From a virus, in IMG/VR virus record IMGVR_UViG_3300008450_000219, positions 1 through 33,605 of that record: a DNA stretch of 33,605 nt, one strand, 5' to 3'. The translations under genes were made by a program, and so were the position numbers. This document shows, piece by piece, positions 2,273-27,958 of the stretch (position 1 is the stretch's first letter; each line of letters opens with the position of its first letter). The notes under the pieces were generated by a model. It searched no databases and had not been told where the DNA came from. It worked only from the letters and a program-made list of their open reading frames with translations.

Positions 2273-2902
2273 TCAAAGGCCGAACTTGGCAGCGGTACTC
2301 AGGGCAGTGAGCTTGCCAAGGTCTACATCAAGCACCACTTCCTTCTTGTCACGCTCTTTGATCTCGCGGTGCTTGTCCTTGACATCATCGGGCACCAACT
2401 CCCACAGGGCGGGCCATGCCTTCAGGGCCGGAGCCAATGTGCTGTACGCATTGCATACCTTGTAGACCATCTGCACAAACTCAGCCTGTCGTTGTTGGGC
2501 TGCGGCAACACGCTGGTTGTATGCCACTACCTCCGCACGGAACTCATCCCAGACAAGCTGGTCTTTGAGGATGATGCCGTCGCTCCAGCCACGATCCTTC
2601 GTGGCAATGTCAGAGGCGGGAAACGTGTTGGGCCACGGCACAGGCGGGTTGAAGGTAAACCGCATGTCGCACCTGACTTCACCCACTTTCTCAATGAGCA
2701 TCTGATCCACCGTCTTCAACCATCCAGCAGGAACTTGCGAGATGATTGGCTTGACTTCAAGGAACAACGTGTCGTAGATGCGCTGGCCCCATGAGTTGTC
2801 GGGCTTGGTTTCCTCGGCTTTGGTGACGGCAGGTGCCATCTTGTCACGGGCGTTCTTACCGATGCGGTCGATAAGTTCTTTACTGAAACGTACTGTAGCG
2901 AT
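2273..2902 (-). CDS. Conserved phage protein, probably initiated at a rare ATC codon
   Basis: The frame encodes about 209 residues if begun at ATC (2900-2902), or 188 if begun at the first ATG (2839). The ATC is preferred because a strong Shine-Dalgarno AAGGAG (2909-2914) lies exactly six bases before it, only ten bases after the preceding gene's stop is cleared, and the predicted start reads [M]ATVRFSKELIDRIGKNAR, a natural-looking N-terminus. The downstream ATG has no ribosome site. The protein has a Pro/Trp-rich middle (FNPPVPWPNTFPASD) and a helical C-terminus (DVKDKHREIKERDKKEV). The function is unknown, and no catalytic motif is recognised. Confidence 0.72.
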   Translation of the reverse strand: MATVRFSKELIDRIGKNARDKMAPAVTKAEETKPDNSWGQRIYDTLFLEVKPIISQVPAGWLKTVDQMLIEKVGEVRCDMRFTFNPPVPWPNTFPASDIATKDRGWSDGIILKDQLVWDEFRAEVVAYNQRVAAAQQRQAEFVQMVYKVCNAYSTLAPALKAWPALWELVPDDVKDKHREIKERDKKEVVLDVDLGKLTALSTAAKFGL

Positions 2903-2912
2903 GTGGTTCTCC

Positions 2913-3152
2913 TTATTGAATGGGGTGTTCGGGAACTGTCATGCGAGACATGATCTCGCCCAACTGCCATGTCACTGCTGCAATGAACTCGTCCGTTGAC
3001 AAGTCAGACCTCGCGCCGGACAGTGCAAGCAGCGTAAGTAGAGCGTTGACAGTCACACTGAACTCTCGGGTATCACTACCCATAGCAGTGTTGATCTGGG
3101 TTACAAGTGCCATCACCTTGGCGTGGTATTCAGCGGATTCTGTACTCATCAT
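2913..3152 (-). CDS. Small acidic hypothetical protein, 79 residues
   Basis: A small, probably all-helical soluble protein of unknown function. It begins with two methionines (ATGATG) so the first residue is ambiguous by one. It overlaps the stop of the upstream peptidase/VWA gene by four bases, so it is translated as part of that operon. No domain is recognised. Its position immediately after the ATPase-DUF3150-VWA block makes it a candidate accessory subunit, which is inference from location only. Confidence 0.65.
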   Translation of the reverse strand: MMSTESAEYHAKVMALVTQINTAMGSDTREFSVTVNALLTLLALSGARSDLSTDEFIAAVTWQLGEIMSRMTVPEHPIQ

Positions 3153-4261
3153 TCCATCTCCACAATCTCACCGAAGGGTGCTTTGCCGGGGTCTGTCGTG
3201 ACCCACAGCACTGGTGCATCGGGCTGATCTCCGAAGCTGTTGCAGCACAGGTCAGTCAGGAACACGATGGCTACGGGGTTGATCGCAAGTTCAGTGATCT
3301 TGGCAAAGACTGGTGCGAAGTCGGTGCCGCCACCGCCGTGGGGCTTGATGTCCAGATCATCGTGGGGTTCGTAACTCTCCACGTGGCTGACCTCACTGTC
3401 GAAGTACAACACGTGGATACGCTCAGGCATCAGGTCTTCCTTGACCCGCTTGATCTCGGCAGCGAACTGGTTGACTGTCCTCTGGTCGATGGAGCCGGAG
3501 CAGTCCACAGCGAAGCACACCTCACCCATCTGCTCACCGCTGACACTGGGCAGGTACAGTCCTTGTGCAATGAAGCGGCGATTGAACCGAGCAAAGGATC
3601 GCTGGTCAGTGCGGGCTTTGACGAGGAACTTTTGCAGCACCTCACGCCAGTCCACCTTGGGTTGCAGCACATCATCCACAAGACGTTGCATGTTGGCAGA
3701 CATCTTGCCCATCATCTTGGCTGCTTGCGCTGCTTGGGCTACCTTCACCTTCCACTCAGCTTGCTGCTGCGCTTGGTCGGCAGGGCTACCGTCACCGTCC
3801 TCGCAGTCATCGAGTGGGTCTTGCTCGTGGTCTTCCGGCAGGATGTTGTAGATACCCTCACTGGTGCCGTGCCCAGCGTTGTAGATCGCATCGTTGTGCA
3901 GTCCCATCTTGGGCATCTTGCCGATGCTTTCATCGGTCAACAGCTTGTTGATCACGTAGTCCGCAGCTTGGTTCCAGCGCCGTGGGGTACGCTCACCACG
4001 CCGGAAGTTGTGTTCCAGCATGGGATGGAAGCACTCGTGGGCTACGAGGAACTTGACTTCCTCATCGGTCAGCTTGTCCACGAACTCGGGGTTGAACTTG
4101 ATCCGCTTGCCGTTGGTTGCCGCAGTGGGGATGCTCTCGTCAAACTCGAAGGGCATACCCAGCGCAATGGTACCCACGAAGGGATGCTCCAAGATCAGGG
4201 ATGTCTTGGCCTTAGCCAACTTGGTAGTCAGCCGTTTCATATCCAGTGTTGCAGTTGTCAT
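3149..4261 (-). CDS. Zinc-peptidase-like plus VWA-domain protein
   Basis: A 370-residue two-part protein. Residues 60-90 hold a zinc-peptidase motif HECFH (H75, E76, H79). Residues 235-360 form a von Willebrand A-like domain with a complete metal-binding MIDAS pattern: DCSGS (D243, S245, S247), T313 in GGGGTDF, and D337 in FLTD. An acidic, glutamine-rich linker (about 140-170) separates them. This architecture matches phage and bacterial putative metallopeptidases of the DUF2201/VWA-like type. The start ATG at 4259-4261 is chosen because AAGGAG sits just before it; the frame remains open further upstream but overlaps the neighbouring gene. It is encoded with a MoxR ATPase, the usual partner of VWA proteins. 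Confidence 0.85.
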   Translation of the reverse strand: MTTATLDMKRLTTKLAKAKTSLILEHPFVGTIALGMPFEFDESIPTAATNGKRIKFNPEFVDKLTDEEVKFLVAHECFHPMLEHNFRRGERTPRRWNQAADYVINKLLTDESIGKMPKMGLHNDAIYNAGHGTSEGIYNILPEDHEQDPLDDCEDGDGSPADQAQQQAEWKVKVAQAAQAAKMMGKMSANMQRLVDDVLQPKVDWREVLQKFLVKARTDQRSFARFNRRFIAQGLYLPSVSGEQMGEVCFAVDCSGSIDQRTVNQFAAEIKRVKEDLMPERIHVLYFDSEVSHVESYEPHDDLDIKPHGGGGTDFAPVFAKITELAINPVAIVFLTDLCCNSFGDQPDAPVLWVTTDPGKAPFGEIVEME

Positions 4262-5120: not shown

Positions 5121-5167
5121 TTGATTCCTCTAAAGATGTTGTTGGATGTGTGTTTGTATTTCGCAGA

Positions 5168-5188
5168 GATACGTCCCCGTGACGTATC
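5168..5188. other. Perfect 8-bp inverted repeat between the ATPase and DUF3150-like genes
   Basis: GATACGTC, a five-base spacer, then GACGTATC. It lies in the only sizeable gap (82 bases) of this part of the leftward operon. No T-run follows on the - strand, so it is not a standard terminator; it may be an mRNA hairpin that changes stability between cistrons or a protein-binding dyad. Confidence 0.6.
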
Positions 5189-5202
5189 CCCGCTCCACTC
5201 TG

Positions 5203-6189
5203 TCAGAACAGCACGTCTTGGTGGTTGATTGACCACTTGGTGAAGGCTTGGGTGTTAGCCAAGTCAGGGTTGCGCCGTGCTGCATAGCTCACTGTCAGCA
5301 CACTGAACTCGGGGGGCATACGTTCGCTGTACTGGCAGACCCTCTCGAAGTTGGACTCAGTGGCCCGCTGTGCAATGGCACCAGACAAGGCATACAGAGT
5401 GGCAGGGTCTTTGGGAACGTCAGCAGTCTGGGGGTTGAGTAGGATGGCATCAGGGTTGGGCAACTTGCGGAAGATACGAACGAAGCCAACGAACTCGGCT
5501 GCTGCACCCTCACCAACTGCACCTTTGAAGCACTCGAACTCAGCCTCGGATGGCACTGTACCCAGCACATCGGACACACCGTCAACCCAAGCACGGGGAG
5601 TGGCGTTCTGGTCACGCTGTGGATCGAAGTCATGCAACAGACCGGGACGGAAGCGGATGAAGCTGATCACCTCGGGCTTGACACCGTGGTTGATGGCCCA
5701 TGAAGTCCAGTCGTCAAGGTGTGTCTCCAACTCCAGCACTGTCTCACGGTTACGCAGATGACTCAGCACTCGGTTGGCACCAGCACGGTCAGCTTGCCTG
5801 TTACCAGTGGACACCACCATCCAGCCATCAGGCATCGGTGTGCCATGCAGTGTCCGGGCTTGGCAGATGTTGGCAAGAACCTTTTGCAGATCAGGGCCAG
5901 CTTGGTTGCGGTCATCGAACAGCAGGATGCCTTGCTCTGGGGACTTGCCCTTGACAGGGAACCAGTCAGGCAAGCGGTAGTTCAGCTTGTCAGTGTTGTC
6001 TGGGAACAGAATACCGAAGTCCTCCACAAGCATGGTTGGCATGTGACGTTCGATGCAGGGGATGTCAAGTTCCTGTGCCGCCTCGTGGACGATGGTTGTC
6101 TTGCCACCACCGGGGGCACCCTCAATGGACAGGGTACGGGTGATAGGGAACAGGGACTTGATGGTTTCTTTCAGCAGTGTGGCTCGCAT
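5203..6189 (-). CDS. MoxR-type AAA+ ATPase
   Basis: A 328-residue AAA+ ATPase. It has a Walker A motif GAPGGGKTT (24-32), a Walker B-like ILLFDD (88-93), a sensor-1 stretch VVSTGN (N130) and a following arginine-rich LSHLRNRE that could hold the arginine finger. The overall order is that of the MoxR family, ATPases that remodel protein complexes together with VWA partners. The second acid of Walker B is Asp rather than the usual Glu. It is the first gene of the ATPase/DUF3150/VWA block and has a GAGAGGA ribosome site. The partner protein presumably gives specificity, and the cellular target is unknown. Confidence 0.88.
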   Translation of the reverse strand: MRATLLKETIKSLFPITRTLSIEGAPGGGKTTIVHEAAQELDIPCIERHMPTMLVEDFGILFPDNTDKLNYRLPDWFPVKGKSPEQGILLFDDRNQAGPDLQKVLANICQARTLHGTPMPDGWMVVSTGNRQADRAGANRVLSHLRNRETVLELETHLDDWTSWAINHGVKPEVISFIRFRPGLLHDFDPQRDQNATPRAWVDGVSDVLGTVPSEAEFECFKGAVGEGAAAEFVGFVRIFRKLPNPDAILLNPQTADVPKDPATLYALSGAIAQRATESNFERVCQYSERMPPEFSVLTVSYAARRNPDLANTQAFTKWSINHQDVLF

Positions 6190-26359: not shown

Positions 26360-27958
26360 ATGGCAGCACGATTTTGGGTAACAGGCGGCACCGGCAACTG
26401 GAACAGCACAACCAACTGGTCTGCGACCTCTGGCGGGGCTTCTGGTGCGTCCGTGCCCGGTTCTGCCGACACTGCTGCGCTTGATGCCAACTCAGGCGCA
26501 GGCACAGTTACGCTCGACATCAGCCCAGACATTCAAACCCTGACCTGCACAGGCTTCACAGGTGCGCTTGCTTTTGGTACCAACACGATTTCGCTAAACA
26601 GCACAGGCACAATTTTCACTGGCGCTACGACCATGACGGTGACAGGTACGCCACAGATTATTTGCACTAACTCAAGCGCTACTAGCCGAGTAATCAGCCC
26701 TCAAATAGTTACTGAGGTGAATAGTATTTCGTTCAGGATTACTGCTGGTACTGGAACATTTACAAATACTGCCAGCCACGTTGTTCGTGATTTGGATTTT
26801 ACAGACGGCACCAATCCAACCGGGTATGCTGGCGCATTTGGTGCAAACAACGTAACTATTTATGGAAATTTAACAGCGTCCACCGGGATGACTCAAACTG
26901 CCGGAACAGGCACAATTACTTTTGCCGCCACATCAGGCACAAAGACAATCAACACCGCTGGCGTGGCATTTGAGCGTCCATTCACTTTCAATGGTGTAGG
27001 TGGCACTTGGCAACTTCAAGCCGCATTGACTTCTGGCGCAACTCGCGCCTGCACTTTGACCAACGGCACGTTAGATTTTAATGGCTATACCGCCACGTTT
27101 GGCAACTTTTCTTCCAGCAATTCCAACGTTCGTGCATTGGCGTTTGGGGCGGCGGGCAAATTAGTTCTTACGGGGATAGGCACCATTACCGCTTACACCA
27201 CATCAACTGCGACCAACTTAACTTTAACCGGTTCGCGGCGGGTTGAAATTACCGGCGCTGCGATTGCTGGTGGTACAAGATCAATCACTGGTGGATTATT
27301 ATCGACGGGCGGCGGTTCTGCGGCAAATGCAGTGGATTTTTTTATAAGCGCCGGTGCTGATTCAATCAACTTAGGTACAGCGAACCGTGCGTATAGAACG
27401 ATTGACTTTACCGGGTTTTCTGGAAGTACAGCCGTCAACGTAGCTCCTCAGCTTTACGGCTCGTTGGTCTTATCTTCCACCATGACAGTATCTAGTGGCG
27501 CAAACATTTGGGTATTTGCGGCAACCGATGCACAGACAATTACAACCAATGGCGTGACATTAGATTCCAACATTACTTTTGATGGTGTTGGTGGAACGTG
27601 GGCCATGCAGGATGCACTCACGTTGGGGTCTACTCGTACATTGACTATGACCAACGGCACGCTGCAACTTAAAAGCGGCGCAACGTCTACAGTCGGTGCA
27701 TTTGCTACGTCAGGTACCACGCTGAAGTATCTTCAGTCCACGACGCCGGGGTCGCAAGCCACACTGTCGCAGTCAAGCGGTACAGTCAGCAGCAGTTATC
27801 TGTCGATCCGAGACATCAACGCCACGGGTGGCGCTGTGTGGCGAGCCTATACGACCAATCAGAACGTGAACGCCGGGAACAACACCGGTTGGGATTTTAT
27901 CCAGCAGATTGGCCGATACATCTATACTCGCCGGAAAAACAAACGAATTCTTTATTAA
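26360..27958 (+). CDS. Repeat-containing adhesin, beta-helix type
   Basis: A 532-residue Gly/Thr/Ser/Asn-rich protein. The start RFWVTGGTGNWNSTTNWSA, followed by a PGSADTAALD segment, is familiar from bacterial and phage adhesin-like proteins. Two internal repeats of roughly 100 residues are visible (about 140-245 and 345-445), sharing TFNGVGGTW / TFDGVGGTW, the R-TLTNGTL block and others. The C-terminus is short and basic (YTRRKNKRILY). It is probably a second host-binding fibre. GAGGAG precedes the ATG. Confidence 0.75.
   Translation: MAARFWVTGGTGNWNSTTNWSATSGGASGASVPGSADTAALDANSGAGTVTLDISPDIQTLTCTGFTGALAFGTNTISLNSTGTIFTGATTMTVTGTPQIICTNSSATSRVISPQIVTEVNSISFRITAGTGTFTNTASHVVRDLDFTDGTNPTGYAGAFGANNVTIYGNLTASTGMTQTAGTGTITFAATSGTKTINTAGVAFERPFTFNGVGGTWQLQAALTSGATRACTLTNGTLDFNGYTATFGNFSSSNSNVRALAFGAAGKLVLTGIGTITAYTTSTATNLTLTGSRRVEITGAAIAGGTRSITGGLLSTGGGSAANAVDFFISAGADSINLGTANRAYRTIDFTGFSGSTAVNVAPQLYGSLVLSSTMTVSSGANIWVFAATDAQTITTNGVTLDSNITFDGVGGTWAMQDALTLGSTRTLTMTNGTLQLKSGATSTVGAFATSGTTLKYLQSTTPGSQATLSQSSGTVSSSYLSIRDINATGGAVWRAYTTNQNVNAGNNTGWDFIQQIGRYIYTRRKNKRILY

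Follow-up and report, generated by a model that had tools for sequence, protein, structure and literature searches.

A private ATC in the start-codon position of an Nmad5-like phage gene

Introduction

Within the 33,605-nucleotide virus contig considered here (IMG/VR record IMGVR_UViG_3300008450_000219, analysed over its whole length and called the window below), a minus-strand reading frame has a Shine–Dalgarno site that is followed by an ATC. Where does translation of this gene begin, and what is the ATC: a start codon that evolution has maintained, a recent change in one lineage, or a wrong letter in a metagenome contig? We consider it very probable that the gene is Nmad5-like and starts at 2902-2900, that its ancestral start codon was ATG, and that the ATC is a private derived change lying within a recombined tract. 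The case shows how homologues can both fix a start site and reveal an odd codon at that site to be unconserved. If the base is real, micro-recombination would have introduced a natural start-codon knock-down into a core phage gene, and the allele would offer a case in which to test what Nmad5 is needed for.

The initiation site

Features of the locus are collected in Table 1. Read on the minus strand, the sequence across the site is TTCAATAAGGAGAACCACATCGCTACAGTACGTTTCAGT, in which AAGGAG (2914-2909) leads through the spacer AACCAC (2908-2903) to ATC (2902-2900), the frame ending at a stop at 2275-2273; the earlier note's account of an AAGGAG exactly six bases before an in-frame ATC matches the letters. 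Upstream of the ATC the frame remains open for only 12 codons, bounded by a TGA at 2941-2939 (221 codons from stop to stop), and these 12 codons contain no ATG, GTG, TTG, CTG, ATT or ATA; an in-frame start upstream of the ATC was therefore rejected. In the other direction, no ATG, GTG, TTG or CTG occurs in frame until the ATG at 2839, which lies 63 bases 3' of the ATC and, as the earlier note had also said, has no AAGGAG-like site before it.

Table 1. Coordinates of features at and around the initiation site
Feature	Position	Strand	Remarks
Nmad5-like gene, 209 codons	2273..2902	-	27 relatives aligned at codon 1; PF18757 matches in 18 of 27 members; viral fold matches
ATC in initiation codon position	2900..2902	-	ATG in all relatives; private to the contig
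AAGGAG Shine–Dalgarno site	2909..2914	-	6 bases 5' of the ATC; conserved in close relatives
First ATG in frame (Met22), sole remaining canonical start	2837..2839	-	No Shine–Dalgarno site; the MATVRFSKELIDRI segment would be lost
Patch of 53 bp containing the ATC	2882..2934	-	About 16 differences, including a 4-base gap, from 99% identical relatives
Upstream 79-aa gene, intact	2913..3152	-	TAA at 2915-2913
DUF2201 metallopeptidase-like / VWA-like protein	3149..4261	-	Constant neighbour
AAA ATPase	5203..6189	-	Usual neighbour

By itself, the combination of AAGGAG, suitable spacing and ATC is not beyond chance: the window has 17 AAGGAG sites on its two strands, for which about 1.3 ATC are expected and 2 are seen at a spacing of 5-9, and at a spacing of 4-9 there are 3 instances vs 1 in a reversed control. 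The site at 2902-2900 is lifted above chance because that very codon is the start in 27 of 27 relatives.

In scans of IMG/VR, the first residue of the relatives aligns exactly to the ATC codon. The start codon is ATG in every one of the 27 relatives that cover the region (30-99% protein identity), and it is followed by A-T and then V or I, giving an N-terminus of M-A-T-V/I that is kept down to 30% protein identity. The same codon was found in a smaller comparison (7 of 7 relatives), in a pattern scan with the third base left free (ATG in all of 11 contigs) and in one that allowed any base at all three positions of the start codon (ATG in 20 of 20 other viral contigs), and relatives that are 98-99% identical use it as well. 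Because ATG is present in all relatives and contigs scanned, the ATC is private to the window contig. The window is the sole contig with ATC among those compared, from which records very near to it may be missing, so a sister contig with ATC is possible. Among 50,697 phage records, tblastn and blastn searches returned no relative of the gene or the region, and an upstream motif scan of bacterial genome contigs gave no match.

Judged from these alignments, the initiation site of the gene is exactly 2902-2900. The earlier note had placed the start at the ATC, and the homologues bear this out: they carry the MATVRFSKEL segment, they begin at that codon rather than at a downstream canonical one, and where the window has ATC they have ATG. 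Homologues that instead begin at the ATG at 2839, which would have spoken against this placement, do not occur among the relatives. Downstream of the ATC the protein is intact, 98-99% identical to that of close relatives, as befits a change derived from ATG in a 209-aa frame that is otherwise whole.

Identity of the gene product

The protein of the window has no significant Pfam or PHROG match, and a fold search of solved structures in the PDB gave no match. Its putative family membership comes by way of relatives: 18 of 27 family members match the Pfam family Nmad5 (PF18757) at E values up to 1, and a full-length relative (L032), 43% identical to the window protein, reaches 31.6 bits against a curated cut-off of 27, over profile positions 2-187. 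An AlphaFold model of the window protein (pLDDT 86) has as its best fold matches in BFVD unnamed phage proteins (E 8e-14 and 5e-8); BFVD proteins named 'nucleotide modification associated domain' match weakly (E 2e-3 to 4e-2, TM about 0.4-0.46). The likeness to Nmad5, as exemplified by nmad5 of Dhillonvirus SMS22/SMA8, consists of the profile matches of relatives and the viral fold matches, and the difference is that the window protein itself falls below the cut-off. We call the gene product Nmad5-like, after a family linked to DNA modification; such a role for the window protein is putative. A ribbon-helix-helix assignment for MATVRFSKEL was unsupported; the predicted structure consists of long helices around a small sheet.

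In the relatives examined, the gene order is AAA ATPase, a 282-aa protein, DUF2201/VWA, mostly the 79-aa gene, the Nmad5-like gene and a 123-aa protein, and in most of them DUF3310 and polymerase complete it.

A mosaic patch around the start codon

What kind of event could have changed the start codon? Over 22.5 kb, the window is 99.86% identical to its closest relative (G004); with three other contigs it shares 99.1-99.5% identity over 2.8-5.1 kb. Within 2882-2934, it differs from the three contigs covering that stretch at 12 bases plus a 4-base gap, whereas the flanks are 99.1-99.9% identical to the relatives. The patch resembles a more divergent lineage, of the L015/L004/L006 type, and reads ACCCCATTCAATAAGGAGAACCACAT-GCTACAGTACGTTTCAG as in L015/L016; among the private differences within it are the ATC and, at codon 7, a synonymous AGT. 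A search with TTCCCGAACACCCCATTCAATAAGG for the exact donor of the patch did not find one. A second patch, of 75 bp at 26381-26455, has 18 differences, mostly synonymous; there, a 532-aa gene begins, and the two contigs compared are otherwise 99.86% identical. It shows that the process recurs, so short-tract recombination is usual in these phages. A short tract from a divergent relative has probably been acquired by recombination, with the third base of the start codon differing there, ATG having become ATC.

A further segment, at 5121-5206, is intergenic, lies upstream of the 282-aa gene, cannot be aligned to the near-identical contigs G002 and G004, and is flanked by clustered differences at 5211-5230; from the sequence comparison, it is probably another exchanged segment.

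Competing interpretations

The ATC is, from the comparison of sequences, a private one-letter change rather than an established unusual start codon: it is either a variant that is weakened or an error in the base. Could translation simply begin at the first canonical start in frame, the ATG at 2839, to give a 188-aa protein? Such a start would have no Shine–Dalgarno site, would shorten the protein by 21 residues, among them the ATVRFSKELIDRI segment of close relatives, would cut a predicted helix at 8-31 and is used by no homologue; contradicted by the homologues, it was rejected, and we regard it as the least credible of the readings weighed here. Another proposal is a genuine AUC start that is maintained and holds expression down by design, in the manner of the AUU of infC; the earlier note preferred a natural ATC start and compared it with the ATT of infC. 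The AUU of infC, the gene for IF3, is a conserved regulatory feature, and the likeness to it is a near-cognate AUN start behind a strong Shine–Dalgarno site; the ATC in the window, in contrast, is private, and its relatives use ATG. The strong Shine–Dalgarno site, its good spacing and the lack of another start codon speak for a maintained AUC, and low expression might be useful given that nmad5 of another phage is apparently toxic (PMC11846954). However, AUC works very poorly in E. coli (PMC9680021), and conservation is lacking, every relative down to the 98-99% identical ones having ATG; with the ATC absent from all relatives, a regulatory AUC start that has evolved is unlikely, and the parallel with infC finds no support. 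We consider a maintained AUC highly improbable, and favour instead the other option raised in the earlier note, that one base of an ATG changed in this isolate or its assembly, since all relatives have ATG.

Is the C at 2900, then, the true base? Opinion here is finely balanced: we lean slightly toward a real variant, and an error of sequencing or consensus in the metagenome contig, with the phage itself having a normal ATG, is only a little short of an even chance. An error would account for the ATC being present in the window contig only, and the site falls where the contig switches strain types, the hardest spot for consensus building. Real changes are rare in start codons, on which purifying selection acts, and this counts against the base being real; the presence of the gene in largely fixed order in every relative examined suggests that losing it would be costly, which somewhat favours a base error. 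Against an error, the contig is otherwise accurate: outside the two patches, the changes private to the window (sites covered by at least two relatives, all of which it differs from) comprise 11 synonymous and 2 nonsynonymous ones, with no frameshift in the compared regions. Its error rate therefore appears low, because random errors would be mostly nonsynonymous. Moreover, a typical sequencing read is longer than the patch, and spanning reads should exist; for that reason the patch would reflect real molecules and not a false join. As the window is the one contig with ATC, a base error and a rare allele would look alike.

If the base is real, a loss or reduction of function might have been tolerated or even favoured, on the view that Nmad5 is conditionally dispensable and can be sensed by a host defence (Tmn). 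In Dhillonvirus SMS22, deletion of nmad5 was possible, and a missense change in the gene gave escape from Tmn immunity; in Dhillonvirus phages nmad5 also proved uncloneable, with apparent toxicity (PMC11846954). These results make a weakened allele plausible in some hosts, by extension from a distant relative, and a gene that is otherwise intact fits a very recent event. Yet deleting nmad5 did not by itself abolish Tmn sensitivity (PMC11846954), and the relation of the window protein to the Dhillonvirus Nmad5 is distant; we rate this account as unlikely. Improbable, in our estimate, is a real lineage that has gained an AUC-initiated Nmad5-like gene through the recombination tract and in which a protein level that is lowered, though not to nothing, is advantageous in an AUC-tolerant host; the advantage, if this were true, could be reduced toxicity or escape from a host sensor.

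Expected effect on expression

What would the preferred reading, a private change from ATG, mean for the protein? If the base is wrong, the gene would be ordinary. If it is real, the gene would be a recent, strongly weakened allele. Ribosomes should still arrive, since the Shine–Dalgarno site is intact and overlaps the stop codon of the 79-aa gene (TAAGGAG); that TAA, at 2915-2913, stands 10 bases before the ATC, which makes translational coupling possible. Ribosomes would thus dock at the AAGGAG, perhaps aided by coupling, and there fMet-tRNA would pair poorly with AUC. In E. coli, AUC, AUU, AUA and CUG have 0.1-0.3% of AUG activity with one leader, all six non-AUG codons have 0.04-3% with another, and the near-cognate codons AUU, AUA, CUG and AUC reach 5-20% in two Clostridium species (PMC9680021); in an in vitro study, IF3 is reported to keep out weak pairs at the third base (PMC10158994). 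For an E. coli-like host, we infer an output of roughly 0.1-1% of the normal amount of protein, which would be full-length and start with Met. The literature on AUC or ATC start codons that we found concerns mostly mitochondrial genes. A parallel is a point variant of rpoS in E. coli O104:H4, in which ATG -> ATA lowers the protein up to 5-fold (PMC12864459): it is likewise a single third-base change of a start codon in a gene that is otherwise intact. The rpoS variant was verified in the strain with protein measurements, whereas the ATC is known from one metagenome contig alone.

Other regions of the window

Three nonsynonymous differences from G004 fall together at 9615-9623, in codons 15-17 of a 99-aa gene, on a background that is otherwise synonymous. 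Beyond it, 9666-11875 is a long gene-poor stretch that separates the early module, on the minus strand, from the late module, on the plus strand; it contains direct and inverted repeats and is a candidate control or origin region. At 10517-11104, a 50-bp repeat occurs in three copies, with a strong hairpin CCCGGAGCCTGTCACGCTCCGGG beside an A-run (a T-run on the minus strand), each copy lying downstream of or between small minus-strand ORFs; judged by these motifs, the repeats look like repeated intrinsic terminators.
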